Source: Acidithiobacillus thiooxidans ATCC 19377 (GTDB lineage: Bacteria; Pseudomonadota; Gammaproteobacteria; Acidithiobacillales; Acidithiobacillaceae). From it: a stretch of DNA of 64,000 nucleotides. Positions 9,343-45,684 of the stretch are shown here, one piece after another. The stretch is taken from positions 2,354,501 through 2,418,500 of the forward strand of contig NZ_CP045571.1 of NCBI RefSeq assembly GCF_009662475.1, written 5' to 3'. The position numbers and the translations under genes are program-made. The notes under the pieces were generated by a model. It saw only the letters and a program-made list of their open reading frames with translations. It had not been told where the DNA came from and searched no databases. Numbering within the stretch: position 1 is the first letter of the stretch; each line of letters starts with the position of its first letter.

Positions 9343-9469
9343 GGTGCAATTCTCCTGACCCTTGCTGGAATTATAGTGCATGCAGCAACGTCTCGCATAG
9401 CCATCGACCGGGATAGGAAATGCCTGCACCGGAAAATTGGCCTGGCGCCGGATGCGTGCCTGCTCAAAT

Positions 9470-10105
9470 TCAGGCGTCAGCGAGTAGCTGACGGCTGCGT
9501 TCGGCGCTCGGACGGGTGCTCACAAGATTGAACCAGGGGCCGAGGTGGGGTAATGCATGGTCGAAGGGTTGCCCCACGCTGTCAGCGAAATCGAGCCAAA
9601 CGTAGAGCCAGATATCGGCTGCAGTGAAGCGCTGTCCGCACAGATAAGGGCCATTGCCGAATATACTGTCGAGCCAGGCGGTACGGTCTCGGGCGACCCT
9701 CTTCAACCCGTCTGCCGCTTCTGGTGCCACCGGGATTCGATCCTTAAATCGCTCCAAGCCTTCTGCATAGTGATAGGCGTTGTGAATGAACTCTGTGATG
9801 TTCAGTTCCACGCGTCGCCACCATTGCCGCGTTTCAGTGCGCTCGATTGCAGTCGTTCCGATCAGCGCGATCTGCGGATTCTCTTCTTCGAGGTACTCGG
9901 CGATCGCCACTGCCTCAGCCAGCACCCGCCCGTCATCAAGTTGCAGCGCTGGCGTCTGTCCAGCGGGATTAAGGCTAAGAAATGGCTCGCCCCGGTTCTC
10001 ACCCGCGAATACGTCGATAGTAATGCTTGGAATCGTCAGATGTTTTTCCAGAATGAACATCCGCAGGCAACGTGGCGCTGGACTGTGTGCATCGTAAAGC
10101 AGCAT
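9470..10105 (-). CDS. Glutathione S-transferase
   Basis: 211 residues. The N-terminal thioredoxin-fold half reads MLLYDAHSPAPRCLRMFI, with Ser/Pro at the usual catalytic position, then the cis-Pro and glutathione-binding NPAGQTPAL and EAVAIAEYLEE. The C-terminal helical domain contains CGQRFTAADIWLYVWLDF, the N-capping box of GSTs. It conjugates or reduces electrophiles with glutathione in the cytoplasm. GGAG precedes the ATG. Probably in one transcript with the reductase downstream, although the spacing is wide. Confidence 0.93.
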   Translation of the reverse strand: MLLYDAHSPAPRCLRMFILEKHLTIPSITIDVFAGENRGEPFLSLNPAGQTPALQLDDGRVLAEAVAIAEYLEEENPQIALIGTTAIERTETRQWWRRVELNITEFIHNAYHYAEGLERFKDRIPVAPEAADGLKRVARDRTAWLDSIFGNGPYLCGQRFTAADIWLYVWLDFADSVGQPFDHALPHLGPWFNLVSTRPSAERSRQLLADA

Positions 10106-25060: not shown

Positions 25061-26461
25061 CTAACCTTCCTCAGCCACCACTTCCAGAACTTCCAGGACA
25101 TCAGCTACATCATCCTGCAAAGGATGATAATGCCGACCCGCTTTCTGAAAAAGACGGGACAGCAAGCCATGCGACAGACTCACCGTCATTTCAGGCATCA
25201 CATCCCCTGTTTCGGCGAGCGCCCTGGCCGCGCTGGACACCCCCGACGCATTGGCAGCTTCCCATTCCATTCCATGCGTTTCGGTGCCGGCTGTGGGCTT
25301 CGGCACCCGCCCAGAAGGCTGACGTGCGACAGAGACCGCATCGGCAGCCACTGCAGACAATGTGCCGGAAAATTCGGGCTCACTCTCTTCTTCATCCTCA
25401 TCCAGATAATGATCTGCCGCACCCTCATCCGGATCCGGCGTAGGCAATACTTCCTCACCCTCTGAATCAAGAGGACTCGACACTTCTGGGGCCGTTGTTT
25501 CGTCTTGGTAAGCAGCCCGTAGTGCCTGCTCTGAAGACATGCCCGACTTCAGATTCTGGAATGCCAGGCGCTTGGCCGCATCATTGGACGATACCCAATC
25601 CTGCGCTTCGCGCAATTGTTCCATGCTCAAATCTGATCGATCCTGCAAACCTAAACCATTGCGTAGCGTCCAGATTTCTTCTGCTTCATCAATGACCGTG
25701 CGCTTCAGTTCAATGCCTGCGCTGACGCGCTCTTTCAGATCCACGAAAATCGCGCGCTTACCCTCGGTATCGCGCCACCAGCCCATGAGCCGAACGAGCT
25801 CATTCTGACCAACGGCATTCACATCTATTTCCAGGTGCTCGATCAATGCCCGGGCATCGGGATGCACTTTGCTCAACATCTGGTTCACCCAGGTCCGCGA
25901 ACGTCCCAGACGGCGACCCAACTCTTCCTGGCTGACCTTTTGGGTCTCAATCAATGATTGAAGTGCATAAGCGGTATCCAGCGGGCTCATATCAGCCCGC
26001 GCCAGATTCTCGACCATCTGCATTTCCAGTCGATCTACATCGGACTGAGGTTCTACCAGAACAGCAGGGATACGGCTCAAATCGTAGCCAGGACGTTCGC
26101 ATTTCTTCCCAGTAGAGAGCGCATGCCGGGATGCCCGCCAGCGTCTCTCGCCAGTCACAATCTGGAATCCACCATCCAGTCGCCTGACCGTAATGGGTTG
26201 AATCACACCATGACGCAAAATGCTTTCCGCCAGCAGTTCCAAATCTTCGTCTGCTTCATCGGATAAACGACGGGGTTGATTGGGATCGGGCGTAATTTCA
26301 TCCAACTTCAAAAACAGGCCAGAAGGCAGGTTTTCAGACAGATTCCGTCCTCCGCTTTTCTTTCCGGCAGAAGATGTTCCAGATCCATTTTGCCCTTCAG
26401 CGTCTTCCTGAAGCGCAAATGCCAAAGACTCCATCACATCATCCTTCTTGATCTTCGCCAC
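25061..26461 (-). CDS. parB: ParB-family partition protein
   Basis: 466 residues, longer than plain ParB. Order: basic N-terminus; ParB/Srx-like domain with EITPDPNQPRR and RHGVIQPITVRR, GGFQIVTGERRWRAS (the CTP-binding box); VENLARADMSPLDTAYAL; helix-turn-helix SQEELGRRLGRSRTWVNQML; then a long acidic, low-complexity C-terminus (DEDEEESEPEF). Binds parS sites and drives plasmid or element segregation with ParA. The GTG at 26461 is preferred over the TTG at 26467 because AAGGAGG lies seven bases before it. Overlaps the end of parA. No parS-like 16-mer was found by eye. Confidence 0.92.
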   Translation of the reverse strand: MAKIKKDDVMESLAFALQEDAEGQNGSGTSSAGKKSGGRNLSENLPSGLFLKLDEITPDPNQPRRLSDEADEDLELLAESILRHGVIQPITVRRLDGGFQIVTGERRWRASRHALSTGKKCERPGYDLSRIPAVLVEPQSDVDRLEMQMVENLARADMSPLDTAYALQSLIETQKVSQEELGRRLGRSRTWVNQMLSKVHPDARALIEHLEIDVNAVGQNELVRLMGWWRDTEGKRAIFVDLKERVSAGIELKRTVIDEAEEIWTLRNGLGLQDRSDLSMEQLREAQDWVSSNDAAKRLAFQNLKSGMSSEQALRAAYQDETTAPEVSSPLDSEGEEVLPTPDPDEGAADHYLDEDEEESEPEFSGTLSAVAADAVSVARQPSGRVPKPTAGTETHGMEWEAANASGVSSAARALAETGDVMPEMTVSLSHGLLSRLFQKAGRHYHPLQDDVADVLEVLEVVAEEG

Positions 26462-27239
26462 CTTCAACCTCCTTATTCAGCAAATTTTCGACTATTCTGA
26501 CACAAACTCTGCGCCAAACACTCGCGCCAGGGTCTCTGGGTGCATATTGCCACACCGCCTTACCTTCGCGCAGCGCATCGGGTGCCAACACCCGATCCGT
26601 AAAGACCTCGGGCAACACACTGTCTTTATGAACAGTTTTTCGTAACATTTCGATCATGCGTGACTGGTTGGCACTTGTCATCTTGTATTTATTGATCAAG
26701 ATGGTCATATCCAGTGGCACACCGGAATTCAGGACCATTTGACGATCACGAATAGCACCGACCATCCCCTGAACCGCCAGGGTATCCGGTATCACCGGTA
26801 TGACCAGTACCCCGCCCAACAACATGGGGGCCAGTTGTAGCACCCCGGGTGCGGGGGGCACATCGAAAACAATCAGATCAAATGAGAACTCACGCAACCG
26901 ATCCATCGCCATGCGGGCTTCCCGCATACCTTCAGGATTCACTGTTCCCTGTCCAGGAACAGCCACTGCATGTTCACTACCCGGCAGAATAAAAAAATTA
27001 AAGTCGTCATATTTCCTGAATTCCATCTCGGAATCTTCATCCCAAAGATCGGTCACCGCAATATCCAGGTCAGATGATTTGCGTACTTTTCTGGTTACTA
27101 TAGTCGTAGCATTGCATTGACTATCCATGTCCACTAGGAGTGTTTTTAGTCCCATTTCAGCAGCACACGCGGCCAAATGTAGGGCAATGGTGGTTTTCCC
27201 CACCCCGCCCTTCCGATTCATCACGGTAATCGCTTTCAC
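26439..27239 (-). CDS. parA: ParA-family partition ATPase
   Basis: 266 residues. Deviant Walker A MNRKGGVGKTTIALHLA at the N-terminus, Walker A' LLVDMDSQCNATT and Walker B DLIVFDVPPAPG. Short ParA type Ib without an N-terminal DNA-binding domain. It moves ParB-bound DNA along the nucleoid. GTG start at 27239 overlaps the stop of the upstream ribbon-helix-helix gene (GTGA). Together with parB and that gene it forms a three-gene leftward operon. Confidence 0.95.
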   Translation of the reverse strand: MKAITVMNRKGGVGKTTIALHLAACAAEMGLKTLLVDMDSQCNATTIVTRKVRKSSDLDIAVTDLWDEDSEMEFRKYDDFNFFILPGSEHAVAVPGQGTVNPEGMREARMAMDRLREFSFDLIVFDVPPAPGVLQLAPMLLGGVLVIPVIPDTLAVQGMVGAIRDRQMVLNSGVPLDMTILINKYKMTSANQSRMIEMLRKTVHKDSVLPEVFTDRVLAPDALREGKAVWQYAPRDPGASVWRRVCVRIVENLLNKEVEGGEDQEG

Positions 27240-31358: not shown

Positions 31359-32489
31359 ATGAAACTTTTCTTTACCGATTCTACATGTAGCATTGAGGGC
31401 GTTGAGCGCCCCAATATTCCTTTTCTGTGCGATGCCCAGATGGAGTTGGTGAGTCCACCCAATCAGTATCTGCGCTACATAGCTACAGTCAGAGGCAGAA
31501 CGCGGTCGGAGAAAACCTGGCAAACTTACGGGTCGAACCTGCTGGAATATTTTGCCTTTCTGGAAGCAAACGGACTGGACTGGAACGCTGTCAGCCAGGG
31601 ACAAATTGCCGCATGGCGGGATGCCATGCTGGAGAGGGGGTGTGCACGGAGCACGGTCAATCAAAGATTGCGGAGTGTGCATGCTTTTTATGACTGGTCC
31701 GTTAAATCGGGAACGGCCACTGCAGTACCCTTTTCCAAGCAGGATATTTGGGTGGCCAAGCCGCGAGGATTTCTGGCCCATGTGGACGCTAAAGGAGGCC
31801 GTCTTGAGGTGAACGCGCTAACCCTCAAGACCTACGATCGTAGACCCCAATTTCTATTATTGGAAAAGGCTATCCATTTTCTGGAAGAGACCCACCCACG
31901 ACGACTGCAATTGATGGGCTATCTCATGTTGTTGACGGGGATGAGACGGGAAGAAGTCACCGCCCTGGACTATCGGGTAGTCCCCAATCCCGCAGGGCGG
32001 GATCCAGGAAAACAGATCCCGATGGTCCTGGATGCGAGCATGACACCCACGAAAGGCAACAAAACGCGAACTGTGATGTTGCCTTATGATCTCGCAGTCG
32101 CCCTCCATGAATATTTTACATTCGTATGGCCCAAGCTGTTGGCCCTTCATAGAAAAAAATACAAAACTGAAACCACGCGTTTTTTTCTATCAAGAACAGG
32201 GGATCCGCTCTCCATCAAGGGCGTCAATAATGCTTTTGCCAAAGTCAGCCTGAAAACAGGTATTCCCTGTCATCCACATCTCCTGCGGCATACCTATGGG
32301 ACCTATGAACTTTTGCGCATGCTCCGAACCAAGGGAGAAAGTCAGGCATTACTTTGGGTCAAGGATCGTATGGGGCACAGTTCCATTACCACAACTGAAC
32401 AATACATCCATGCTGCCGACCTGATTCAGCAAGATGATATTGACGGTTACATAGCCGATGTCTGCAGGTCGCTGAGCCATGGCCATTAG
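31359..32489 (+). CDS. Tyrosine recombinase A of the trio
   Basis: 376 residues. N-terminal SAM-like core-binding domain (SEKTWQTYGSNLLEYFAF) and catalytic domain with Arg in LLTGMRREEVTAL, His-x-x-Arg in HPHLLRHTYGT, a second His in GHSSITTTEQYIHA and the nucleophile Tyr in the same segment. All catalytic residues present. Corresponds in size to TnpA of Tn554. No clear ribosome site before the ATG at 31359; a later Met near 31441 is possible. Confidence 0.9.
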   Translation: MKLFFTDSTCSIEGVERPNIPFLCDAQMELVSPPNQYLRYIATVRGRTRSEKTWQTYGSNLLEYFAFLEANGLDWNAVSQGQIAAWRDAMLERGCARSTVNQRLRSVHAFYDWSVKSGTATAVPFSKQDIWVAKPRGFLAHVDAKGGRLEVNALTLKTYDRRPQFLLLEKAIHFLEETHPRRLQLMGYLMLLTGMRREEVTALDYRVVPNPAGRDPGKQIPMVLDASMTPTKGNKTRTVMLPYDLAVALHEYFTFVWPKLLALHRKKYKTETTRFFLSRTGDPLSIKGVNNAFAKVSLKTGIPCHPHLLRHTYGTYELLRMLRTKGESQALLWVKDRMGHSSITTTEQYIHAADLIQQDDIDGYIADVCRSLSHGH

Positions 32490-34128
32490 GCGGACAAAAT
32501 TAGACCGGAAGGTGTCCCTGACAGAAAAGGACGGCGAGCTGATTGATCTGCCACCCGGTTGGGCTTTCACAATCCAGTGTCCCCATATGGGCGAAGTCCA
32601 TCTGGATTTTAACCGTTATCGGACGAATGGGAGGGAAGAGCTTGCTGAACAAATACGGGATGTTTTCTGGATGTTGCGCCATTCCTTGTCTGCAAAAAGC
32701 ATTCAGACATATGAAAATATTGGCTTAAGACGCTTTTGGCTTTTTTTAGATGATTACGAACAAAATTACATTACAAATTTTAACCAAATTGATCGCCAGG
32801 TCGTTGATGATTTCTTGGTATGGTTGGGTCATAAAATATCTACAAAGGGAAAGAACAAAGGAAATAATTTTCCTATAAATTCCCAACAAAAAACATTTTA
32901 TCTTGTTAAAAATATATTACTTAACTGCAAGAAATTAAATTTTAATGTCGCGAATAAGAAGTTAACATTTCCTGCAAATCCTTTTCCAAATTCTAATCGT
33001 AGTGCATTGCACCGTAAACCCTATTCACAAAATGAACAAAAACAGATTATCAATGCACTTAATGCAGATCTAAAAATAATCCATAGTGAAGACGCTAAAA
33101 AAATATCAGATTCCCAAATAATAGCCGTCCACTTGCTGATATTAGGTCTTGCAACTGGAAGAAACCTTAGCTGTTTATTAGATTTACGGGACAATAGCAT
33201 ACGATCACATCCAATGGATGGTCGTGACATCCTGATAACAAAAAAACGTCGAGGTTATACATCATTGGCAACATCTCTGAGTAAAAAGCATGAGAAAAAA
33301 GAACAAAAAAATATGGATACAATTCCTTCAAATATTAGTGAGCACTTCAACTTCTTTCGAAATTGGAGCAGATCCACCTATGGCGATGCTCCAGAAGGAT
33401 TACAGGGATATTTATTCCTTTGGCGTATAGCACGTGACGAAAGAAAAGGCTTGCTTGTTAAGCTGCAAGATTCAACCGCAGGGAGATTCGTAATAACTTT
33501 TTCAAAGCGACACCGACTTCTGGACGACGAAGGAAAATTGCTGAAACTCAATATATCACGGCTGCGACCCACAATGGCCACCGATTTATACCGACGTACA
33601 CGAGACGTACGTCGTGTGCAGATGGCGCTAGGGCATGCGCAGGCCGATACCACGCTTCGATACTACGTCACACAACCCTTAGAATCAGAAAGAGATTATG
33701 CTTTTATAATTAATAGCATGGTGAGTCAGTTCTCAAAGACGGAGGTAGAGGGTAAAGTCATGTTGGCAGCAGATGGTTCCGTGCCACTGGAGAATATAAA
33801 AAATCTAATGAGTGGTGGATACAATACAGGGATAGCGCGGTGTCAAAATCCGTTTCGCGAAAACGAATCGGTGTGCAAGAAGTTTCTCACTTGTTTTCGT
33901 TGCCCCAATATGTGTGTTTTTGAGGATGATCTTTGGCGACTATTAAGCTTTTACTATAGGCTTTTAGCTGAACGTAGCAAAATCAACCCCAACCATTGGG
34001 CCAAAACCTATGCGCCCATTATTCGACGCATAGATATAGATATTCTTCCAAACTTCTCCAGTTCTGTCGTCGCCTTAGCGAAGGAAAAAGCCCAAAAAGA
34101 TCCACACCCTACCTGGCGGAGCGCTTAG
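32479..34128 (+). CDS. Tyrosine recombinase B of the trio
   Basis: 549 residues. Catalytic domain in the middle: GLATGRNLSCLLDL, LNISRLRPTMATDLYRR, LGHAQADTTLRYYV. His of the usual H-x-x-R box is replaced by Ser (SRLRPT). A C-terminal extension with CQNPFRENESVCKKFLTCF and CPNMC has Cys-rich spacing that could bind zinc. Starts 11 bases before the end of recombinase A. Confidence 0.88.
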   Translation: MAIRRTKLDRKVSLTEKDGELIDLPPGWAFTIQCPHMGEVHLDFNRYRTNGREELAEQIRDVFWMLRHSLSAKSIQTYENIGLRRFWLFLDDYEQNYITNFNQIDRQVVDDFLVWLGHKISTKGKNKGNNFPINSQQKTFYLVKNILLNCKKLNFNVANKKLTFPANPFPNSNRSALHRKPYSQNEQKQIINALNADLKIIHSEDAKKISDSQIIAVHLLILGLATGRNLSCLLDLRDNSIRSHPMDGRDILITKKRRGYTSLATSLSKKHEKKEQKNMDTIPSNISEHFNFFRNWSRSTYGDAPEGLQGYLFLWRIARDERKGLLVKLQDSTAGRFVITFSKRHRLLDDEGKLLKLNISRLRPTMATDLYRRTRDVRRVQMALGHAQADTTLRYYVTQPLESERDYAFIINSMVSQFSKTEVEGKVMLAADGSVPLENIKNLMSGGYNTGIARCQNPFRENESVCKKFLTCFRCPNMCVFEDDLWRLLSFYYRLLAERSKINPNHWAKTYAPIIRRIDIDILPNFSSSVVALAKEKAQKDPHPTWRSA

Positions 34129-36045
34129 ATGACAGCAGGAAATTTATCGTTTCGTGAATTTCGCGCTTTGAGTCCGATTGAAAAGGCGAAAACCGCTGTT
34201 TCAGTAGATATCTCGCAAAATGGAACTTCAGTAGTAGTCAGCCGCTTTGGCGATGATATATGGGATTTTTATCCATTGATTCCACAAGATAATTTAAGTG
34301 CATCCGTAAAGAGAATTTTATGGGATGTAGTCTTGCCGGATGGGAAAAGGTTGACTGATGCTGAATTTGCATCACTACTAATGGCTTCCAAGGAGTTTAT
34401 ATGGTCACTCTATGCTGAACCGGTAGAAGGGGAAAAGCGTCCTTCATTGCTTACAATAATTCACAAACACGCTTATTTAAGACATTTGTTGTACTGGATG
34501 ACGAAAAATAATGTTCGTTCATTCTCAGAGTTGACTGGTCGCACCATTGAATACTGTAATTATCTGAAGCACAAAAAAAATAAACCACTGAAGCCGGGAA
34601 CTCTACTAATGTATTTGGGTGTTGTTGAAAATTTATATAAACAAAGAGATAAACTGAATGATGCGATAAGAACTCATCCATGGCCATTGGAAACGACTTA
34701 TTCTTTATCCGGTATACTTCAATCATCAAAAAACTACCGAATACCTTCGACAGAGTTCATTCCCGACGGTTTTGCCACTCTAATTGCTCAAAAAGCGATT
34801 GATTATGTTGTCAATAAATCCGATTATATATTGAAAATAGAAGAATTCTTTGATCCTTACGGGAAAATCAGTCCGTCAGACCAGTTGGAGTCATTAACAG
34901 CAAATATATCCGAGCCATACATTATAAGCACTAAAACCATTCTCAATAAAGAAAAAATATTATTGCGCACTGCTTGTTATATCATCATTGCAATGTTTTC
35001 AGAAATACGCGATTCTGAAATAAAATCTCTTGAAACTGATTGTGTGATTCATAGACCAAGCAAAGATGGGCTAGTAGATACGATCTGGATAAAAGGGATG
35101 ATTTATAAAACTGGTCTGCGTCAAAAGTTATGGCAGGTACCTCCTATTGTAGAAACAGCAATTGATGTTTTGACTCGTTTATCGGAGCCATTGCGGTACA
35201 TATTCGAAGAGGAAGAGAAATATATAAAAGATCAACCAATTGAAAACCATGAAATAATAAATATCGAACACAACAAAAGAATTAATACTATAAAAAAACA
35301 AAAAAATAAGCTATTTATTGCTTTGAATAGGAAATATGGTAAATCCATATCCGTAATAAATGGTTCAACCATAAATCATAATATACAGCATTTCTGTGAG
35401 CAATTATTGAGTTCGGGTAGCTCTGAGAGCCCATTTCATCTACATCCTCATCAGTTTCGACGAACGTATGCGCGATTCATCGCCCGCTCGGAATTGGGCG
35501 ATTTACTGGCACTGCGCGAACATTTCGGTCATTGGAGCCTGGATATGACCACTTATTATGCGGATGGGGGTGCAGATGAGTATGAATCGGACATCGAATT
35601 GATGGCCATGGTCACCCAGGAAAAGCAAACCCGGCAATCCGAGATTATGACTGGGTTGCTGGATTCAGAGGCCCCTTTGGCCAAGGGGGGCGAATGGCTG
35701 AAAGCCTGGCGGTCCTCAGTCCGTACGGCGGAAAACAAAGAAAAGCTGATTGCGGAGTATTCAGGATCCATTACCCTGAATGGAACCGGTCATTCCTGGT
35801 GCGTAGGGAATGCCCGGGGAACGGGATGTGGCGGCTTGTGCATTTTCGAAGCGCAAATGTGTGTGGATTGCCATTATGGCATTATTGGCCCTGAACATCG
35901 GCCCGTCTGGGAGGGTATTCGTGACCAGCAAAAGGAGGCGTTGGCTCTGGACGATATGGGAGAATCGGGTCGCGCCCGGGCGCAACTGATCCTGGACAAA
36001 GCCGAAACCGTTCTACGCAGACTGGAAGCATCAAAGGACCAATAA
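34129..36045 (+). CDS. Tyrosine recombinase C of the trio (TnpB-like)
   Basis: 638 residues, the size of Tn554 TnpB (630). Catalytic region: ISEIRDSEIKSLETD, HPHQFRRTYARFI and FGHWSLDMTTYYADGG. A C-terminal Cys/His cluster (HSWCVGNARGTGCGGLC and CVDCHYG) probably binds metal. ATG directly follows the stop of gene B. AT-rich codon use in the first two thirds. Confidence 0.9.
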   Translation: MTAGNLSFREFRALSPIEKAKTAVSVDISQNGTSVVVSRFGDDIWDFYPLIPQDNLSASVKRILWDVVLPDGKRLTDAEFASLLMASKEFIWSLYAEPVEGEKRPSLLTIIHKHAYLRHLLYWMTKNNVRSFSELTGRTIEYCNYLKHKKNKPLKPGTLLMYLGVVENLYKQRDKLNDAIRTHPWPLETTYSLSGILQSSKNYRIPSTEFIPDGFATLIAQKAIDYVVNKSDYILKIEEFFDPYGKISPSDQLESLTANISEPYIISTKTILNKEKILLRTACYIIIAMFSEIRDSEIKSLETDCVIHRPSKDGLVDTIWIKGMIYKTGLRQKLWQVPPIVETAIDVLTRLSEPLRYIFEEEEKYIKDQPIENHEIINIEHNKRINTIKKQKNKLFIALNRKYGKSISVINGSTINHNIQHFCEQLLSSGSSESPFHLHPHQFRRTYARFIARSELGDLLALREHFGHWSLDMTTYYADGGADEYESDIELMAMVTQEKQTRQSEIMTGLLDSEAPLAKGGEWLKAWRSSVRTAENKEKLIAEYSGSITLNGTGHSWCVGNARGTGCGGLCIFEAQMCVDCHYGIIGPEHRPVWEGIRDQQKEALALDDMGESGRARAQLILDKAETVLRRLEASKDQ

Positions 36046-37284: not shown

Positions 37285-37880
37285 TTCAGGAGCGCTTGTT
37301 TCCGGCCACAGGGATGCCCGACAGAAACTGGTGGCAAGCCTTATGGCCTGACCCCGACGGTGTAATCAAAGCACTGGGTATCAAGCCCGGAATGACAGTA
37401 GTCGACCTGGGTTGCGGATATGGTTATTTCACTGCCGCCATGGCCCGGCAGGTTGGGGCGGGACATGTCATAGGTTTCGACCTTGACCCGGAGATGCTGG
37501 ATCAGGCGCAATTGGCTTGCGAGGGAATGACAAATTGTGAATGGTTGCTCGGAGACGCTATGGAACTGAGCCGCCTGGCGGGCGCAACAGCCGACTATGT
37601 CCTGATTGCGAACACCTTCCACGGCGCCCCGGACAAGACGGCGTTAGCTCGGGAAGTTGCTGCGGCTTTGAAGCCCAACGGTCGTTTGGCCATCGTCAAT
37701 TGGTATCCCCTGCCGCGCGAAGAGACGACTGTATTAGACCAACCGCGAGGGCCGAGTACCCAAATGCGCATGTCCCCGGAACAAACCTGCTCGGTGGTCG
37801 AACCGGCCGGCTTTACGCTGGAAACCCTGGTCGAGTTGCCTCCTTATCATTATGGGGCAGTCTTCGTCCGTGCAAACTGA
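37281..37880 (+). CDS. SAM-dependent class I methyltransferase
   Basis: 199 residues. SAM-binding motif I VVDLGCGYGYFTAAMA, followed by GFDLDPEML and LLGDAMELS. No Cys triad of the ArsM arsenite methyltransferase, so its substrate is not clearly arsenic. The ATG overlaps the SHOCT gene stop. Same operon as the ArsR regulator. Confidence 0.88.
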   Translation: MIQERLFPATGMPDRNWWQALWPDPDGVIKALGIKPGMTVVDLGCGYGYFTAAMARQVGAGHVIGFDLDPEMLDQAQLACEGMTNCEWLLGDAMELSRLAGATADYVLIANTFHGAPDKTALAREVAAALKPNGRLAIVNWYPLPREETTVLDQPRGPSTQMRMSPEQTCSVVEPAGFTLETLVELPPYHYGAVFVRAN

Positions 37881-37899
37881 TTCAGAACAGGAGAAAACT

Positions 37900-38178
37900 A
37901 TGGCCGACAATCATGATGAAGTCATCGAACACTACAACCGCTTTCATGCGGCCGTCTATGGCCCGGTGGGCGCACTGGACCGCAAGACGCGTCATCTCAT
38001 CTGTCTCGGGGCAGCGCTGGGGGCAAACTGTGAATTCTGCACGAAATATGCCCTTGGCGTGCTACGGGAACTCCAGGCGAGTGATGCGGAGATCGATGAG
38101 GCGATTAGCGTTGCCATGACCGTGGGCGCGAGCAACGCGAGGCTGCTGGCCAAGAAAGTTCGGGCTGAAAACCCATAG
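37900..38178 (+). CDS. AhpD-like carboxymuconolactone decarboxylase family protein
   Basis: 92 residues, one CMD domain with ALGANCEFCTKYAL (Cys-x-x-Cys). It may reduce thiols or peroxides. AGGAG is eight bases before the ATG. Fourth gene of the ArsR operon, 19 bases after the methyltransferase. Shorter than the AhpD-like protein at 3794. Confidence 0.88.
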   Translation: MADNHDEVIEHYNRFHAAVYGPVGALDRKTRHLICLGAALGANCEFCTKYALGVLRELQASDAEIDEAISVAMTVGASNARLLAKKVRAENP

Positions 38179-38219
38179 AACGAGAAGGATCAACCCAATC
38201 ATTCACTAGGAGGTTGGAC

Positions 38220-38510
38220 ATGGAACCCAAAGATCAAAACACCAAAACAAGCGACGAATCGCAGCACGAACCAGGCGGCGCTTCCAATCCGATGGTGATG
38301 GGTATGGGCATGATGAAAAAGAGGATGGCTCAGATGGGAAACTAGCCGGGGGGTGAAACCGGCCACTTCATGCAATAGATGATGGGGATGTGCATGGGCA
38401 TGCGCTCGGAAATGCTAGCTGTCATCCACAAGACTACCTCAATCGCAGCCTTTGCCACGCCGGAACTTCCCACCCTTCAACTACGAAATTGGGGATATCA
38501 GGGAGTTTGA
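38220..38510 (+). pseudogene. Met-rich small protein gene with two in-frame TAG codons
   Basis: An AGGAGG site precedes the ATG. The frame reads MEPKDQNTKT, a Met-rich segment MVMGMGMMKKRMAQMGN, TAG (38343), PGGETGHFMQ, TAG (38376), then MMGMCMGMRSEMLAVIH and TSIAAFATPELP to a TGA at 38508. The same frame stays coherent across both TAGs, and the final part resembles the Met-rich CMGMCSEML proteins I associate with this kind of operon. It is either a recent pseudogene or a 41-residue protein ending at the first TAG. Confidence 0.55.
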
Positions 38511-38581
38511 CGGGGTCCTGAGTGTCAGGCACCGTTCCCTTCGGGGAAAACCACGTGGTCGTTATGAAAAAGGAGTTAATC

Positions 38582-38896
38582 ATGAGTAAGGAAATGACAA
38601 ATCGTAAACATACTTTCCAGCGTGCACTGCTTGCTGGGGCTGTCACTATGGCTGGAGTGGGTTTTGCTGGCACAGCGATGGCAGGCGGGATGCCACCGGG
38701 CTATGTCAAGTGTTATGGCATTGCCCGTGCGCATCAAAACCAGTGTATGTCCATAGGCGGTATTACTCCCGGATCCGCAAAAACCAATGGCAATCCCGAT
38801 GCCTGGCTGGCCGTACCGAAAGGGGTTTGCCTGAAAATCGTGGGTGGCAGCCTGACCCCCGGAAAGACCCCCACTAAAACCCCTGCTAAGAAATAA
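38582..38896 (+). CDS. bufA: DUF2282 bufferin-like RiPP precursor
   Basis: 104 residues. Signal peptide to about residue 34 (LLAGAVTMAGVGFAGTAMAG), then a short core: KCYGIARAHQNQC with Cys44 and Cys55, and VPKGVC with Cys83, ending in a Thr/Pro/Lys tail. DUF2282 peptides are the precursors of bufferins; an MNIO enzyme converts two core cysteines to thiooxazoles and the peptide buffers copper in the periplasm. Usual members have four core Cys; here the third is missing (ITPGSAKT where others carry HSC). AAGGAG is six bases before the ATG. A strong hairpin follows the gene. Confidence 0.85.
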   Translation: MSKEMTNRKHTFQRALLAGAVTMAGVGFAGTAMAGGMPPGYVKCYGIARAHQNQCMSIGGITPGSAKTNGNPDAWLAVPKGVCLKIVGGSLTPGKTPTKTPAKK

Positions 38897-38904
38897 ATAG
38901 GGGG

Positions 38905-38968
38905 GCCGAGGTCTCACTGGCCTCGGCATATTTTTTAGAATGCTGAAAAAACCTTTTTTGAGCATTCT
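38905..38968 (+). terminator. Terminator or attenuator between precursor and MNIO gene
   Basis: GCCGAGG (38905-38911) pairs with CCTCGGC (38921-38927) and is followed by ATATTTTTT: a classical intrinsic terminator. A second hairpin follows at once: AGAATGCT (38937-38944) with AGCATTCT (38961-38968) plus inner A/T pairs. Partial read-through would give much more precursor than enzyme, as is usual in RiPP operons. Confidence 0.75.
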
Positions 38969-38989
38969 GGTAGCCAGGAGAACACGCTG

Positions 38990-39865
38990 ATGATCCAGGA
39001 CACTACAGCAATTCACACTGGTGCCTTATCCAGGGAGATCCCAGTAGCTGCAGGGATTGGCCTACGTGCCTGCCATTATCGCGATTTCCAAAACGGCAAA
39101 CCGCCAACGGCCTGGGTCGAGGCGCATAGTGAAAACCTGTTTGCTGCGGGTGGCTTGCCTCATAGAGTGATGCACCAGGTGCGCAGTCATTATCCCGTGA
39201 GTCTGCATGGCGTCGGTCTGTCTCTGGGAAGTGCGGACCCGTTGAATAAGGAACACCTCCAACAACTGCAGCAAGTGATCAGCCGTTATGAACCGGGACT
39301 GATTTCCGAACATCTCTGCTGGGTGTCATCGGAAGGACGCTATCTGCACGATTTATTACCCATACCGTATACCGAAGGCATGCTGCAGCATGTCAGTGAT
39401 CGGATTGACCAGGTGCAGAATGTTCTGCAGCGCCAAATCCTGATCGAGAATGTTTCGGCCTATCTGCATTTTGCCGACAATCAGATGGCAGAATGGGCTT
39501 TTTTGAATGCCCTGGTAGGACGTACGGGGTGCGGGTTATTGCTGGATATCAACAATCTGTACGTCAACAGCCGGAATCTCGGAATAAATAGTGATGAGTA
39601 TTTGGTAAATCTCCAAGCCAATGCCATCCATGAGATTCATTTGGCAGGATTTTCGATAGAAACTGCTTTAGGTCAGGAAGTGTTCATCGATACGCACAGC
39701 CAGGCAGTCTGGCCCGAAGTCTGGACGCTTTATCGACGGGCCCTGCAGATTATCGGCCGCCCAATCCCCACACTTATTGAATGGGATACGAACATTCCGC
39801 CACTTGCTATTCTGCTGGAGGAAGCTCAAAAAGCACAGCATATTTTGGAGGGGATCCATGCATGA
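38990..39865 (+). CDS. bufB: DUF692 multinuclear iron (MNIO) RiPP maturase
   Basis: 291 residues, TIM-barrel. All DUF692 landmark motifs are seen in order: GIGLRACHYRDF, WVEAHSENLF, SLHGVGLSLGS, EHLCWVSS, ILIENVSAYL, LLLDINNLYVNSRN, IHEIHLAGF, DTHSQAVWPEVW and LIEWDTNIP; their His/Asp/Glu bind two or three irons. It oxidises Cys side chains of the precursor, here presumably the DUF2282 peptide. Begins 93 bases after bufA across two hairpins and overlaps the DUF2063 gene by eight bases. Confidence 0.93.
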   Translation: MIQDTTAIHTGALSREIPVAAGIGLRACHYRDFQNGKPPTAWVEAHSENLFAAGGLPHRVMHQVRSHYPVSLHGVGLSLGSADPLNKEHLQQLQQVISRYEPGLISEHLCWVSSEGRYLHDLLPIPYTEGMLQHVSDRIDQVQNVLQRQILIENVSAYLHFADNQMAEWAFLNALVGRTGCGLLLDINNLYVNSRNLGINSDEYLVNLQANAIHEIHLAGFSIETALGQEVFIDTHSQAVWPEVWTLYRRALQIIGRPIPTLIEWDTNIPPLAILLEEAQKAQHILEGIHA

Positions 39866-40571
39866 TGCGCTGGACTACCAAAAATCCTTTGTAGCTGCCG
39901 TCCTGTCACCGGAAGAGGGCCGCGTTATTCCCGGACTGAGCGGATCAATTTCTGCGGCTGTTGCAACTGCCATTTATCGCAACAATATTCTGGAAGGCTT
40001 CAGCGAAAGCCTCAAAAATGTTTACGGTGCGATCTTCGTGCTGATTGGAGAGGATTGTTTTCGTGAAATCGCTTATTCCTATGCTCGCTCCATTCCCTCA
40101 TTATCTGGCGACCGCAACGCCTATGGCGAGCACATGCCTGCCTTTCTTGCCCACCATCCTCTCACCCGGAAACTCGCCTATTTACCCGATATGGCACGGC
40201 TGGAATGGGCCAGTCATGAAGCTTACTCTGCAGCAGAAAACTTCATCGTTAATGGATTGCATGCTTCCCTGCATCTGGTGGAGTCGAGCTATCCGCTGAT
40301 GGCGCTCTGGCAACTGTGCCAGCACCCCAATGAGGAAGGCACGCTGGATTTGGATGCACTTGGTGGTGATAGCGTCCTGGTTGTGCGCCCACAGGAAGAC
40401 GTACTGATGCGCAGCTTGTCCCCGGGCGAGGCGGCTTGGTATCGGGCCTTACTGGAAGGACATACCCCCGATCAGGCCACTGCTGCCGCCCGAACAGTTG
40501 AACCGGACTGTGACCCCATGTTGTACGGGGAAACAGCAGTCGGTGATGGGGTTTTACAACAACAACACTGA
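39858..40571 (+). CDS. bufC: DUF2063 partner of the MNIO maturase
   Basis: 237 residues. The N-terminal DUF2063 domain (YRNNILEGFSESLKNVYGAI, then FLAHHPLTRKLAYLPDMARLEW) and a C-terminal RRE-like part (SVLVVRPQEDVLMRSL, SPGEAAWYRALLEG). In bufferin systems it binds precursor and enzyme. GGAGGGG is five bases before the ATG at 39858, which overlaps the bufB stop. Followed 14 bases later by dsbD. Confidence 0.92.
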   Translation: MHDALDYQKSFVAAVLSPEEGRVIPGLSGSISAAVATAIYRNNILEGFSESLKNVYGAIFVLIGEDCFREIAYSYARSIPSLSGDRNAYGEHMPAFLAHHPLTRKLAYLPDMARLEWASHEAYSAAENFIVNGLHASLHLVESSYPLMALWQLCQHPNEEGTLDLDALGGDSVLVVRPQEDVLMRSLSPGEAAWYRALLEGHTPDQATAAARTVEPDCDPMLYGETAVGDGVLQQQH

Positions 40572-40585
40572 GGTAGCGAACACGA

Positions 40586-42574
40586 ATGAAGTATCCAGTT
40601 ATGAGCAGCACCTCTCAGGAACGAGGAGATCATCTCATCAGACTAGCGGGAAATGCCTTTTTTGGGCTGTGGGCACCGCTCATCGTATTGTTGCTGATGC
40701 TCTCTCCATCCGCCCTTGCCAGTTCATTGGTTTCAATAACGAGTCTCAATGCTTCGTCATTGATGTCGTCCACCAATAGCGTGCATCACTCACCGTTTCT
40801 GGCACCGGCCAAAGCCTTCCTCTTTAAGGCGCGCATGGCACCAAACGATACCCTGGTCCTCCAGTGGATCGCCGCGCCTCATTATCACCTCTACCGCAAT
40901 CGGATCACTTTACAGGTAAGCCCTCGTTCTGCCCATTTGGCGCCTTATACCCTGCCACCGGGCAAACCGATGGATATACCGGGGGTCGGAACCCTGGCTG
41001 TTTATGAGGGCGATACCACCACGATTCGGGTGCCCGTACATTTCACGGGCACGCCCCCCAAGCAACTTCGAGTCACCAGCAGTTTTCAGGGATGTGCCAA
41101 TGCCGGTGTCTGCTACCCAGTCATCACGAAAAGCTATACGCTAAGCCCGACGGGAATTATTGCCAGCACCGTACGGCATGCTCCGGCTTTGGCCGACACG
41201 CATCCTGCTCTGCAGAAGCCGGTTCAACCTTCTGTGGTGGCCGGTCAATATGGGCAGTTCGCAGCGGGATTAGCCGGCGGGCAAGTCCTCTTAACGCTAC
41301 TGCTTTTCTTTCTGGCGGGCCTTGGACTAGCCTTCACACCCTGCATTTTCCCCATGATTCCCATTCTGTCCTCCCTGGTGGTCGGTCAGGGGAACACTCA
41401 GTTGACCGTGAAACAGTCCAGAAGGCATGCATTCTGGATTTCTCTGGCCTACGTGCTGGGTATGTCATTGGCCTATACGGTTGCCGGGGTTCTTGCAGCG
41501 ATCACTGGATCCTATCTGCAGGCCTTTTTTCAAAATCCCTGGGTGCTCAGTGGATTCAGTGCATTGTTTGTCGTACTGGCGCTCTCCATGTTCGGTTTCT
41601 ACGAATTGCAGATGCCCAATGCCATACAATCGCGCCTGTCCCGTTACGGGAAGGGCGGACACTTTCTCAGCGCCTTCGTGATGGGTGTGCTGTCCGCCCT
41701 GATCGTCGGACCGTGTGTCGCGGCCCCATTAGCGGGGGCTCTGCTGTTCATTGCCCACACCGGCAACGTAGTTCTGGGGGGGGTGGCCCTGTTCCTTCTG
41801 GGGTTGGGCATGGGGGTCCCCCTGCTGATCATCGGGACTTCTGCCGGACATTTTCTGCCCAAATCCGGCGCATGGATGAATGGCGTAAAGGCCGTCTTTG
41901 GCGTGGTTCTGCTGGGAGTGGCCATCTGGTTCCTGTCACGAATTGTGCCGGGACCGGTTACGCTGGCCTTATGGTCAGCGCTCGCCATCCTCTCAGGTAT
42001 TTTTCTGGGGGCGTTTGCAGCCAATTCCGGGGGATGGCCCCGATTCTTCCAGGGACTCGGCATACTGGCTGTTGTCTATGGTGTGGTTCTCGGAGTCGGT
42101 GCCTCGGCGGGTGCTTCCCTGGTGCTTGAACCTTTGGCACCTTTCGTGGCAAAAGAGGTTTCAGTCGCCCCTCTACAGAACCATGCACTTCAAAAGCATC
42201 ATCCCCTCCAGTTTACCGTGGTTCGCAGCCTTCCCCAGCTGCAATCGGCTTTGGCCGCAGCAAAAGGGCACCCGGTATTGGTGGATTTCTGGGCAACCTG
42301 GTGTGTAGAGTGCCAGCGTATGGATGTCGAAACCTATGACAATCCCCATGTAGAAAAGGCCTTGCAACCACTCACGCTAATTCGGGTGAATGTGACAGCA
42401 AGTGATGCCGCATCGCGCCACCTGCTTCATCATTTCCAGTTATTTGGGCCACCGGCAGTATTGCTGGTCAATGCGCAAGGGCATCTGGTTGCCCAATATG
42501 AAGGCTATGAAGGACCCGAAACGCTCCTGCAGCACCTGCAGCAGAAGCTGGGCCATACGATGACTGATCATTGA
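40586..42574 (+). CDS. dsbD: Thiol:disulfide interchange protein DsbD
   Basis: 662 residues. Order: signal/membrane start; periplasmic alpha domain with QGCANAGVCYPV; eight-helix transmembrane core with FTPCIFPMIPILSSLV and IVGPCVAAPL (the two core Cys); C-terminal thioredoxin-like gamma domain DFWATWCVECQRMD. It carries reducing power from cytoplasmic thioredoxin to periplasmic Dsb proteins. It starts 14 bases after bufC and precedes three DsbC/G-like genes, so it is presumably their reductant. A start at the second Met (40601) is possible. Confidence 0.94.
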   Translation: MKYPVMSSTSQERGDHLIRLAGNAFFGLWAPLIVLLLMLSPSALASSLVSITSLNASSLMSSTNSVHHSPFLAPAKAFLFKARMAPNDTLVLQWIAAPHYHLYRNRITLQVSPRSAHLAPYTLPPGKPMDIPGVGTLAVYEGDTTTIRVPVHFTGTPPKQLRVTSSFQGCANAGVCYPVITKSYTLSPTGIIASTVRHAPALADTHPALQKPVQPSVVAGQYGQFAAGLAGGQVLLTLLLFFLAGLGLAFTPCIFPMIPILSSLVVGQGNTQLTVKQSRRHAFWISLAYVLGMSLAYTVAGVLAAITGSYLQAFFQNPWVLSGFSALFVVLALSMFGFYELQMPNAIQSRLSRYGKGGHFLSAFVMGVLSALIVGPCVAAPLAGALLFIAHTGNVVLGGVALFLLGLGMGVPLLIIGTSAGHFLPKSGAWMNGVKAVFGVVLLGVAIWFLSRIVPGPVTLALWSALAILSGIFLGAFAANSGGWPRFFQGLGILAVVYGVVLGVGASAGASLVLEPLAPFVAKEVSVAPLQNHALQKHHPLQFTVVRSLPQLQSALAAAKGHPVLVDFWATWCVECQRMDVETYDNPHVEKALQPLTLIRVNVTASDAASRHLLHHFQLFGPPAVLLVNAQGHLVAQYEGYEGPETLLQHLQQKLGHTMTDH

Positions 42575-42604
42575 TGTTATAAAAATTATATTGAGGAGAT
42601 CGCT

Positions 42605-43210
42605 ATGAACTGCAACACAAGACTGACCGTTTTAACCGGCATGCTGATCGGCATCTTGGGCATAGGATCTGCCCTGGCAGCCACAGAACTTCCGCCTTTA
42701 CCCAAAATGGCTCAGAACAATTATTGGAAGGACATCGGCCAGCGACTGACCTATATCCAGGAAGGGCATAAAGGACCGGTCATTTATGATTTTTTTGATC
42801 CGAATTGTCCTTATTGCCACGGTATGTACGATGAGGAGCAGCCGCTAATCAAAGCCGGGAAACTCTCCGTACGTTATGTGCCGGTCGCTTATCTCATGCC
42901 CAGTAGCACCCCTGAAGCTGCCGCTATTCTGCAATCCCCGCATCGGGTCCAGGCGCTGCAACATTTTGAGGGATTGGCTGCCAAGAGTTTCGCGGCACCT
43001 ATGGGACCCCAGGGGCCTGTTGGTCTGCCGCAAGCCAAAGCACTTCCACAGACGCTTCACGCTTTAAAAGTGAACATGACTGTACTGCAAAGTGCCCACT
43101 CGATGGGCGTACCCGCCATTTTGTATGAACGCAAAAATGGCACAACAGGATTAATGCCCGGCATGGTATCTCGCGGGGAACTGCTGACCATCATTCCGAA
43201 TCTGAAATAA
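42605..43210 (+). CDS. DsbC/DsbG-like periplasmic thioredoxin-fold protein 1
   Basis: 201 residues. Signal peptide to about residue 25 (GILGIGSALAA), then a DsbC/G-type thioredoxin fold with FFDPNCPYCHGMYDE (C-P-Y-C) and cis-Pro in SMGVPAILYERKNG. It lacks the N-terminal dimerisation domain of DsbC/G. First of three tandem paralogues; TGAGGAG precedes the ATG, 30 bases after dsbD. Probably a disulfide isomerase or reductant acting on the precursor or its metal-loaded form (inference). Confidence 0.9.
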   Translation: MNCNTRLTVLTGMLIGILGIGSALAATELPPLPKMAQNNYWKDIGQRLTYIQEGHKGPVIYDFFDPNCPYCHGMYDEEQPLIKAGKLSVRYVPVAYLMPSSTPEAAAILQSPHRVQALQHFEGLAAKSFAAPMGPQGPVGLPQAKALPQTLHALKVNMTVLQSAHSMGVPAILYERKNGTTGLMPGMVSRGELLTIIPNLK

Positions 43211-43236
43211 TCTGCGTACCAGGAGAATAGCGCGAC

Positions 43237-43869
43237 ATGGAAAACAGGATGAGAACCCGCTGGCTGAAATGGCTGGGAATCGGGCTATTTGGCAGTAGTC
43301 TATTACTTTTTGGCACGACTTTCGCTGAAGCTCAGACAGCAACGGGAACGGCTACAGCGGTACCGCCAAAAAAACTGACGGCGAATGTTCTTTGGAAGCA
43401 TATTCTGGCGCATCACCTCACTTATATTCAGGAAGGCCACCACGGTCCCATCATTTATGATTTTCAGGATCCCAATTGTCCTTACTGCCATGTGATGTAC
43501 AACCATGAGGCCGCCTTGATTAAGGGCGGAAAATTGACGGTCCGTTATGTCCCCGTGGCCTTCCTGACGCCACAAAGTCCGGCAGAAGCCGCCGCTTGGC
43601 TGCAATCTTCCCATCCTCTGACAACATTGAAACATTTTGAATCCATTGTTGGTCCGGCGTTACAGAGCGGTGACTATCGCAGCCTTCCCAAAGCCACACC
43701 CACAGCAAAAACAACCCAGGATCTTAAGCATAATCTGGAAATGATGGGTGCATTGGGTTTCAATGGCACGCCCGCCATGTTGTATCGTCTCAAAAATGGT
43801 CATATTGGCCGCATCCCCGGCATGATTTCTGAAAAACAGCTTTCCGGGCTGCTGCCGCATTTGCGGTGA
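43237..43869 (+). CDS. DsbC/DsbG-like periplasmic thioredoxin-fold protein 2
   Basis: 210 residues, closest to its upstream neighbour: LTYIQEGHHGPIIYDFQDPN, CPYCHVMYNHEAALIKGGKL, then cis-Pro in FNGTPAMLYRLKNG. Signal peptide ends near TFAEAQ. AGGAG is 12 bases before the ATG, 26 bases after gene 1. The pair looks like a recent tandem duplication. Confidence 0.9.
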   Translation: MENRMRTRWLKWLGIGLFGSSLLLFGTTFAEAQTATGTATAVPPKKLTANVLWKHILAHHLTYIQEGHHGPIIYDFQDPNCPYCHVMYNHEAALIKGGKLTVRYVPVAFLTPQSPAEAAAWLQSSHPLTTLKHFESIVGPALQSGDYRSLPKATPTAKTTQDLKHNLEMMGALGFNGTPAMLYRLKNGHIGRIPGMISEKQLSGLLPHLR

Positions 43870-43975
43870 GTATTATAGGAACGTTGATGGCTATTGGGTC
43901 ATTCCCTTCCAGGAAGCGTCACCGGAGATTGTTCGCCCAAGAGACCATTACCTACGGGTTATTGAGGAGTGCGCT

Positions 43976-44593
43976 ATGAAGAAAAGAAGGTTGTCAGGAT
44001 GGCTGCTGACTGGATGGCTGATCACACTTCCGTTGGCGGCCACGGCTGCACCTGCCCAGGAGAACATGCTTTTTCAGGAAATGACAAAGCCCCAACACGC
44101 CAATCCCAAGGCGCTTCCTCCAAGTGCTATTGCTGCAGCGATAACCCACGCACACACTTTTCTGGTCGGGCATCAGGGGCCTGAGTTAACGGCATTTATG
44201 GACCCTAACTGTATCTGGTGCCATAGATTGTATGAGAAAGCTCTGCCCATCATCGGGGCTGAAAAATTGCGGTTGCGGGTAGTTCTGGTGGGATTTCTGA
44301 AGCCCTCCAGTCCTGCCAAGGCCGCATCCATCCTGATGGCGAATAATCCAGCCAAGGCATTGGCCTATGATGAATCGCATTTCAATACCCAAACAGAAGA
44401 AGGCGGGATCCGTCCAGCCCCCAATCCTCCGCCCTTGATACGTCGCGCCGTGCGCAATAATACCCGGCTGCTTATCCGTACGGGTGAGGAAGCAACGCCC
44501 ACGTTACTCTACCGGAACAAACATGGGCAGTGGGAACTACAACATGGTTTGGGGAGCCATGGGTTGCATAAAATCATGGAGATCATCTCATAA
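43976..44593 (+). CDS. DsbC/DsbG-like periplasmic thioredoxin-fold protein 3
   Basis: 205 residues, more diverged. Signal peptide to about residue 24 (LITLPLAATAAPA). Active site FMDPNCIWCHRLYE (C-I-W-C, not C-P-Y-C) and cis-Pro in EATPTLLYRNKHG. Trp in the motif predicts different redox behaviour from the first two. GAGGAG precedes the ATG; the gap to gene 2 is 106 bases without a clear promoter. Confidence 0.88.
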   Translation: MKKRRLSGWLLTGWLITLPLAATAAPAQENMLFQEMTKPQHANPKALPPSAIAAAITHAHTFLVGHQGPELTAFMDPNCIWCHRLYEKALPIIGAEKLRLRVVLVGFLKPSSPAKAASILMANNPAKALAYDESHFNTQTEEGGIRPAPNPPPLIRRAVRNNTRLLIRTGEEATPTLLYRNKHGQWELQHGLGSHGLHKIMEIIS

Positions 44594-45234
44594 GTTGAGC
44601 GGTAAAACGCTGGAGGCGCTGGGCGGAGTGGAGGGTGCTGCCTATGCTGCCTCCGGTCACGCCAGCTACACCAAGCCCATGGCGGAGAACAGCCTGTAGT
44701 CCTGACCGAACGATATCTGATCGGGTTCCTAGTCCTGAGCTATTTGGGGTTAAAATGGCTGGGTCGTCCCACGGTTATTTCGGGGACACATACTCTTAGA
44801 GTAACTTGGGACAACGGCAGCTATCCCGCGCAAAGTGGTGACCATGGAAGGGCTTTTTAGGAACGCGGATCTGGCTGAACATGTAGCACTCTATACTGGG
44901 AGCCCAAACCCGAGGATGCCTTAAGGCTGAAAGCCAATCTCAATATAGCAACAATCGATTTGTTCGATATTATACAGTCGATCAGGAGTCTGAACCAAAG
45001 TCACCCGCGCAAATATCCTATTGATTAAGCTCAACTGCTACCACTGGAAGGCCTACTGAGTTAAAGGCACACTGCATACCGATGCATTTGCATTTCGGGG
45101 GTCGAATCGGTCTGGCGCTGACTAACCGCAAAGGCCGATTAGTGTGCGTTAGTCCAATGGCCGGTCTCGAGAACATGACAGTCAGTCTGCCGAATGACCG
45201 CTTCCGCTGCAAAATCGCCCATTATTCACCTTAT
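44594..45234. other. Gap with gene remnants, no intact gene
   Basis: About 640 bases. A short open frame near 44690-44860 reads VLTERYLIGFLVLSYLGLKW followed by a soluble stretch, with no start codon or ribosome site, so it looks like the rest of a membrane protein. Stops interrupt all other frames. No repeat or RNA recognised. Confidence 0.5.
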
Positions 45235-45684
45235 TCAAGCTGCGTGGCGTTCAATCACCTCATAACCGATGCAGGCCAGCCAAACGGTCTTTGGTATCGG
45301 GCGGGAGCCATTTTTGTAGTAGGCCATCATGCGCCGAGTCATACCGATGGCTTCCGCCGCACGGCTTAAGCTGAGCTTGTTCCGCTCCATCCACAGGATG
45401 AAATCCTCACGTGTTGGTAATCCGGCCTGTTTCCTCCCCAAGGCATAGAGACTGTCTGCGCCCAGATCCAGTCCGCCGGGCCAACTCAGACCATCGCCCC
45501 AGTCATCTGTATGCCCCTGAGCGAAGAAAGCCGGATCATGGAGTGCACAAAAGGGATCTTCCGCCCGTGAAGGGCCAATAAGATCCTTAAGATCCGTGGT
45601 AAACACTTCTCCGGTGGACCAATGGATTTCTACCTGGAACAGGCCAGTAATCGTCGCCGTTTCAATTTTGGGTGCTTGATTCAT
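45235..45684 (-). CDS. DUF2442 fused to a Cro/C1-type HTH
   Basis: 149 residues. Residues ~1-55 resemble DUF2442 (IHWSTGEVFTTDLKDLIG), and the C-terminal part is an XRE-type helix-turn-helix: MERNKLSLSRAAEAIGMTRRMMAYYKNG. Follows the DUF4160 gene by 14 bases on the same strand; DUF4160/DUF2442 pairs are proposed toxin-antitoxin-like modules. The HTH part suggests autoregulation. Confidence 0.8.
   Translation of the reverse strand: MNQAPKIETATITGLFQVEIHWSTGEVFTTDLKDLIGPSRAEDPFCALHDPAFFAQGHTDDWGDGLSWPGGLDLGADSLYALGRKQAGLPTREDFILWMERNKLSLSRAAEAIGMTRRMMAYYKNGSRPIPKTVWLACIGYEVIERHAA

Follow-up and report, generated by a model that had tools for sequence, protein, structure and literature searches.

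A bufferin-type operon followed by dsbD and three dsbG-like genes

The stretch of DNA analysed here, called the window throughout, comprises 64,000 nucleotides of the genome of Acidithiobacillus thiooxidans ATCC 19377 (one contig of 3.42 Mb; G000:C1:2354501-2418500). At positions 38582-44593 it carries seven genes, all on the + strand, which encode a DUF2282 precursor peptide of the Buf1 (bufferin) type, an MNIO enzyme, a DUF2063 partner protein, DsbD and three DsbG-like proteins, the last encoded by dsbG1, dsbG2 and dsbG3 in operon order (Table 1). This run of genes at short spacing had been proposed from the sequence in an earlier reading (hereafter the original prediction), and all seven were found by profile matches. 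The precursor and MNIO genes are 93 bp apart, the MNIO and DUF2063 genes overlap by 8 bp, and the later gaps measure 14, 30, 26 and 106 bp; as in Buf1 clusters, the DUF2063 gene directly follows that of the MNIO. Signal peptides were assigned by eye, that of the precursor being of the Sec type. Because the seven-gene order is repeated at 99.4% DNA identity in the same genome, and because three further genomes, from two other genera, have related dsbD–dsbG cassettes beside their MNIO genes, the grouping goes beyond chance.

Table 1 Features of the operon in the window
Feature	Position	Strand	Evidence
Duplicated unit, 99.4% identical to L008 10072-16134 of the same genome	38535-44597	+	blastn
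DUF2282 (Buf1-type) precursor, 104 aa	38582-38896	+	PF10048, 66 bits (cut-off 22.4)
GC-rich hairpin, 9-bp stem, then a T run, between precursor and MNIO genes; probable attenuator	38905-38927	+	Folding
MNIO enzyme, BufB type	38990-39865	+	NF050167 MNIO_BufB, 375.6 bits (cut-off 310); PF05114
DUF2063 partner protein (BufC type)	39858-40571	+	PF09836, 53.9 bits (cut-off 27.2)
DsbD, full length	40586-42574	+	NF001419, 508.3 bits (cut-off 330); Pfam domains
DsbG-like protein 1; CPYC, VPA loop	42605-43210	+	PRK11657, 95.1 bits, model 96-247 of 251
DsbG-like protein 2; CPYC, TPA loop	43237-43869	+	PRK11657, 100.5 bits, model 97-248
DsbG-like protein 3; CIWC, TPT loop	43976-44593	+	PRK11657, 99.3 bits, model 113-248

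Buf1 peptides are described as having four conserved cysteines, of which the central ones are modified and the first and last form a disulfide (PMC12452194). The window precursor has three mature cysteines, reading C-C-T-C at the four Buf1 positions, with the third absent. Among 126 aligned Buf1 domains, counted with places that are present twice in the data taken twice, 112 have all four cysteines and 14 lack the third; these 14 represent nine distinct genes, all from Acidithiobacillaceae. The first and last cysteines are both retained, and on the published four-cysteine scheme the three-cysteine form would therefore have a single core cysteine left.

Dsb genes accompany two kinds of MNIO locus

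Six places in the A. thiooxidans genome match the MNIO family PF05114: the window and the loci L007 to L011. L008 is the near-identical copy of the window unit and also retains a four-cysteine bufferin gene and, in two frames, DoxX. L007 has the order four-cysteine bufferin, DoxX, three-cysteine bufferin, MNIO, DUF2063, dsbD, dsbG1, dsbG2 and extracytoplasmic function (ECF) sigma factor, with no dsbG3 and with a transposase-like gene, recognised by eye, splitting its dsbD. A second architecture is present twice, in the nearly identical L010 and L011. At L009, an open reading frame at 8554-8898 with EGNC and DGKCG motifs precedes the MNIO gene at 8964-9812, and no Dsb gene was found in 19.5 kb. 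MNIO genes as similar to that of the window as the one in L009 are present in many relatives.

DoxX genes are frequent, though not universal, in Buf1 clusters. The original prediction had remarked that none is seen here, which is true of the window operon; both L007 and L008 carry one, and an operon that lacks DoxX by design is rejected on that ground. Because these sister loci keep the four-cysteine gene together with DoxX, the window copy starts inside a longer operon, and the missing DoxX is a local feature of a shortened copy. Upstream of it lie genes for ArsR, a small membrane protein, a methyltransferase and a carboxymuconolactone decarboxylase-like protein, where there is no DNA match to L007 or L008.

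Across 29 genomes of the family there are 35 MNIO places, all of which were compared with up to about 10 kb per side where the contig allowed; L041, on a 3.3-kb contig, was excluded from the table of MNIO types. We call a Buf1 locus with a three-cysteine gene kind A, and the second MNIO and precursor architecture kind B. In seven of the nine kind-A loci the three-cysteine bufferin adjoins a four-cysteine one, and dsbG is intact in seven (the window, L007, L008, L013, L014, L016 and L017); of the remaining two, L024 has a truncated dsbG and the contig of L015 ends before any dsbG could show. The Buf1-type loci of relatives keep one dsbG in five of six cases (truncated in one), of the type that encodes DsbG-like protein 2. 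dsbD follows a kind-A MNIO gene only in the three loci of the A. thiooxidans genome (the window, L007 and L008), and at L016 a fragment similar to DsbD lies some 5 kb away (64% over about 70 aa; it scores 75 bits in L066, which is the same locus). All five kind-B loci, from four genomes in three genera, carry dsbD and three dsbG genes. Dsb genes are thus found at 13 of 14 loci of kinds A and B (scoring the truncated dsbG of L024 as present and the contig end of L015 as absent) versus none of 20 family MNIO loci of other kinds within the compared stretch (Fisher P = 1.5e-8, a descriptive figure, as the loci are kin). The four-cysteine-only loci L036 and L037, two near-copies from the same genus, have no Dsb gene in the operon.

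The dsbD genes themselves fall into two classes. The second class stands at an MNIO gene in 8 of 11 places, and the other class, present once per genome in 26 genomes (six of them without an MNIO), does so in none of the 26, by position or contig. The MNIO-free members of the second class are L045 (G010), with dsbD in two frames and a remnant of a kind-B precursor; L047 (G014), with an intact dsbD in a genome that is given as 96% complete and has no PF05114 match; and L042, an intact free-standing cassette on a 5.9-kb contig. Upstream of the intact dsbD–dsbG pair of L047 there is a DoxD-like gene (3361-4488; named by eye). DsbG-like genes away from MNIO are also common in relatives: 18 such places, picked because they lie outside MNIO loci, had no MNIO, and three of them (L046, L055 and L043) have the look of cassettes that are incomplete or decaying. 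In view of these free-standing dsbD and DsbG-like genes, the Dsb genes are not exclusive to MNIO operons. In the A. thiooxidans genome, 14 of the 19 DsbG-like matches at E 1e-30 or better fall inside the five MNIO loci that have Dsb genes; the other five lie elsewhere. At this threshold every one of the 29 family genomes has at least one match, and two genomes of a sister family in the same order have none.

Outside the family, the best 80 of 480 BufB-like loci in named genomes comprised five from Acidithiobacillus, four with DsbG and the fifth on a short contig, and 75 others. None of these 75 bufferin loci has DsbD, and a DsbG-like gene occurs in a single one of them, some 8 kb from its MNIO. 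A class-level search for kind B covered 369 genomes and gave 52 places outside the A. thiooxidans genome; among the best 20 of the 52 (less two at contig edges), none has DsbD and one has a distant dsbG-like gene. These outside loci are often on short contigs, so that absence holds within the compared stretch, and at least two places are common to both sets.

A second architecture with its own precursor

The kind-B gene order is the same in three genera: genes for a redoxin, a metallo-β-lactamase (MBL) hydrolase, ArsR, a major facilitator superfamily (MFS) transporter, DsrE and OsmC are followed by dsbD, dsbG1 and dsbG2, and then by a small precursor, MNIO, DUF2063, dsbG3 and Lnt. The precursor gene lies between dsbG2 and the MNIO gene (9113-9379 in L011; also in L010, L038, L039 and L040) and encodes two MM(R/G)(H/N)GCS(G/S) motifs, conserved throughout the five loci (four genomes); for the copy in L011 there is no Pfam or NCBIfam match at E 0.001. 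In all five copies the leader contains an extra cysteine within FLASCLAGG. LASC resembles a lipobox (judged by eye), and the gene for Lnt, the apolipoprotein N-acyltransferase, ends the gene row in all five loci; a lipid-anchored kind-B precursor is therefore possible. Assignment of the kind-B MNIO to the HvfB type was rejected, as the L011 enzyme scores 285.7 bits with the BufB model (cut-off 310) versus 184.1 with HvfB (cut-off 360).

DsbD and one-domain DsbG-like proteins

The window DsbD has the DsbD_N domain, the membrane domain and the C-terminal thioredoxin domain, with cysteines at 170, 176, 253, 377, 573 and 576. The three DsbG-like proteins match PRK11657 below its cut-off of 124 and over the catalytic part only: by sequence, each has the catalytic thioredoxin domain with its CXXC motif and proline loop and is without the N-terminal dimerisation domain, since the alignment starts only at position 96-113 in the model of 251 positions and, in a solved DsbG chain, at residue 96. 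The dimerisation domain is one that disulfide isomerases of the DsbC/DsbG kind rely on. Profile comparison placed DsbG far nearer (best E 8e-27) than the solved Scs protein 4gxz (E 3e-4, weak). An AlphaFold2 model of DsbG-like protein 2, built on a seven-row alignment, was discarded at a mean predicted local distance difference test score of 43. Against a plasmid collection, which may omit records very near the source genome, DsbG-like protein 1 gave 136 records, all below 60% identity, and hence no close plasmid copy.

Regulation and history of the operon

A hairpin between the three-cysteine gene and the MNIO gene was found in all eight of the nine kind-A loci that were folded (the window, L007, L013, L014, L015, L016, L017 and L024; z -2.6 to -4.5), with stems that differ in sequence and keep their pairing; L008 was not folded and has the same sequence as the window at this point. 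It is a probable attenuator and may set the ratio of precursor to enzyme. The original prediction also raised the matter of a separate promoter for the Dsb genes. In 37800-45300, on both strands, promoter-like sites are fewer than in shuffled sequence (3 versus 6.8); one + strand site, at 43184-43211, lies between the first two dsbG genes. Terminator-like sites in the same interval are at the shuffled level (8 versus 8.2). The kind-A clusters of L007 and five relatives include an ECF sigma gene (checked with Pfam in L007 only).

The A. concretivorus locus, L013, aligns with the window through roughly the first 26 bases of dsbD and again from just before dsbG2. Because this start of dsbD is still there, the best explanation is that dsbD and dsbG1 were deleted from an operon that would once have had both. 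The window operon is a mosaic: its similarity to L007 is 88% before about 40800 and 97% after it, and the free-standing cassette L042 (G016) matches the window from 40790 to 44732 at 98%. In a DsbG tree of 51 rows, from which two short rows (L024 and L055) were left out, there is a supported group for dsbG1 (11 rows, eight of them linked to an MNIO and three not) and one for dsbG3 (nine rows, seven linked and two not), with rows of the dsbG2 type scattered. To account for kinds A and B, Dsb and MNIO genes must have been joined about twice, unless a single older arrangement was later reshuffled.

The surroundings of the window copy look mobile. Three consecutive recombinase-like genes occupy 31359-36045, two matching the phage integrase family and the third without a match at E 1e-5, and beside them are a ParA-type gene (26439-27239) and, both named by eye, a KfrA-like gene and a ParB-like open reading frame. 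Farther off, at 11208-16522, the window holds the alpha and beta genes of a respiratory nitrate reductase, with an MFS transporter gene and a globin gene nearby.

A proposed combined copper and thiol-stress unit

We favour, with moderate confidence, a reading in which the bufferin-type operon, predicted to make a thiooxazole metallophore, and the periplasmic reductase cassette form one co-expressed unit with two arms, against copper and against thiol stress. Its observed basis is the gene content, the recurrence of the linkage, the missing cysteine and the catalytic motifs. The genes would be transcribed together. In the first arm, the MNIO, with the DUF2063 protein as its partner, would turn the one core cysteine of the three-cysteine precursor into a thiooxazole by oxidation before export, and the peptide would bind copper in the periplasm. 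In the second, DsbD would draw electrons from cytoplasmic thioredoxin and hand them to the DsbG-like proteins, whose task would be to guard unpaired sulfur of envelope proteins, possibly including that of the peptide, against oxidation by copper, iron and acid. Co-location, together with three precedents, makes this the best reading: thiooxazole peptides of the bufferin class bind copper (PMC13097082; PMC12452194); DsbG is kept reduced by DsbD and protects single cysteines from oxidation (PMC7089426); and ScsB–ScsC is a known DsbD-like and DsbC-like pair that serves copper tolerance (PMC8900818). In A. ferridurans adapted to incineration residues, DsbD and DsbG, not necessarily the products of the genes described here, were upregulated (PMC12053936).

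Several observations weigh against such a unit. dsbD and dsbG1 are absent from the five Buf1-type loci of relatives that have enough sequence, and second-class dsbD stands away from any MNIO in 3 of 11 places (G010, G014 and G016). Genomes with second-class dsbD and genomes with kind A or B overlap in four of seven (P = 0.07). The five cassettes of the A. thiooxidans genome are copies of two types, which puts the number of independent joinings at about two. Moreover, one related enzyme favours a small residue after the cysteine (PMC13097082), and the residue after the core cysteine in the three-cysteine form is Met, or Asn in L015, neither of them small; DUF2282 precursors are described in the same source as showing little conservation around the cysteines. 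The original prediction, which had made the Dsb genes a branch of the MNIO operon and would have taken their absence beside the locus in relatives as evidence against it, thus holds in part. Recurrence in two architectures, and the contrast with Dsb-free MNIO loci, speak for the tie, and relatives do keep one dsbG, but dsbD and dsbG1 are missing beside their loci and three dsbD cassettes are MNIO-free.

Direct action of the Dsb proteins on the peptide, on its disulfide state, metal release or recycling, as first proposed, is plausible. In its narrower form, which we regard as possible but less probable than the two-armed unit, the DsbG-like proteins would chiefly reduce the single unpaired or thiooxazole sulfur of the bufferin (or a sulfenic acid or mixed disulfide of it) and so recycle the peptide for copper. 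The Dsb-linked operons have the three-cysteine bufferin (those nine distinct genes, all of Acidithiobacillaceae), and four-cysteine-only loci are without Dsb genes in the operon, both L036 and L037 and the 75 elsewhere, one of which has its DsbG-like gene about 8 kb off. The description of DsbG as a shield of single cysteines (PMC7089426) fits this role, as does L045, where a precursor remnant without an MNIO goes with a dsbD in two frames. However, the free-standing L042 and L047 keep intact Dsb genes without an MNIO nearby, and the kind-B precursors have two motif cysteines, to which the single-cysteine argument is not simply applicable. The three-cysteine form and the Dsb link also occur in one taxon, where common descent alone could explain the match. 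A broader version, which we hold to be doubtful, sees the relay from DsbD to one-domain DsbG as the electron supply of a metal-binding ribosomally synthesized and post-translationally modified peptide (RiPP), evolved in Acidithiobacillaceae; despite a periplasm that is acid and oxidising, it would keep the modified, unpaired sulfur of the reduced-cysteine bufferin, and that of the HGCSG-type, perhaps lipid-anchored, RiPP of the second architecture, reduced and metal-competent.

It is unlikely, in our assessment, that the two sets of genes are neighbours by traffic, with the Dsb cassette a separate sulfur or thiol-stress module, carried on mobile islands together with the MBL hydrolase, ArsR, MFS, DsrE and OsmC genes seen in kind B and functionally unconnected with the MNIO. 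Kind-B loci do carry sulfur-type genes, L046 has MBL, ArsR, MFS, DsrE and dsbG genes without an MNIO, the window copy lies near the recombinase-like and ParA-type genes, and the jump in similarity to L007 falls where the match to L042 also starts. Against this, the kind-B order is unchanged in three genera; kind A keeps dsbG in G001, G009 and G025, genomes without second-class dsbD; and the retained start of dsbD in A. concretivorus points to a deletion of dsbD and dsbG1. That the DsbG-like proteins proofread the first–last disulfide of the bufferin after export is highly improbable: although that disulfide is described for Buf1 (PMC12452194) and both cysteines are kept in the three-cysteine form, a three-cysteine peptide allows few wrong pairings, four-cysteine bufferins elsewhere do without a linked dsbD (0 of 75), kind-B precursors have no first–last pair and the proteins have no dimerisation domain.

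Relation to known systems and significance

The operon has features in common with several known systems. It shares with Buf1 clusters (gig operons; captophorins) the DUF2282 precursor, BufB MNIO and DUF2063 partner in the order bufABC, and its sister loci add the DoxX and ECF sigma genes published for Buf1 (PMC12452194); it differs in the absent third cysteine of the window precursor and in the dsbD and three dsbG-like genes that follow. The DsbD–DsbG pathway is matched by the full six-cysteine DsbD and by DsbG-type catalytic domains with CPYC or CIWC, whereas the window proteins are without the dimerisation domain, score below the DsbG cut-off, number three and are encoded in a RiPP operon. 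The ScsB–ScsC suppressors of copper sensitivity likewise pair a DsbD-like membrane protein with a periplasmic partner of thioredoxin fold in a copper context, but the window proteins are by profile far nearer to DsbG than to 4gxz. The kind-B precursor, short and with repeated Gly-Cys motifs before MNIO and DUF2063, resembles the EGKCG-type MNIO precursors (oxazolin, fontiphorin), from which its MM(R/G)(H/N)GCS(G/S) repeat and, for L011, the lack of a family match set it apart. The words dsb, thioredoxin and redoxin are absent from the main text of the bufferin survey (PMC12452194), and among the literature matches listed none joins DUF692, DUF2282, MNIO or captophorin with DsbD or DsbG.

The passages of the literature considered here do not address the question of how MNIO peptides, once exported, keep their sulfur groups intact in an oxidising periplasm. 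The operons offer a candidate reductase, a natural precursor with one core cysteine and a second type of precursor, all three testable in a laboratory host. Bioleaching bacteria meet high copper. The recurrence of the MNIO–Dsb pairing in related bacteria suggests that the cell may keep exposed sulfur groups reduced while buffering copper.

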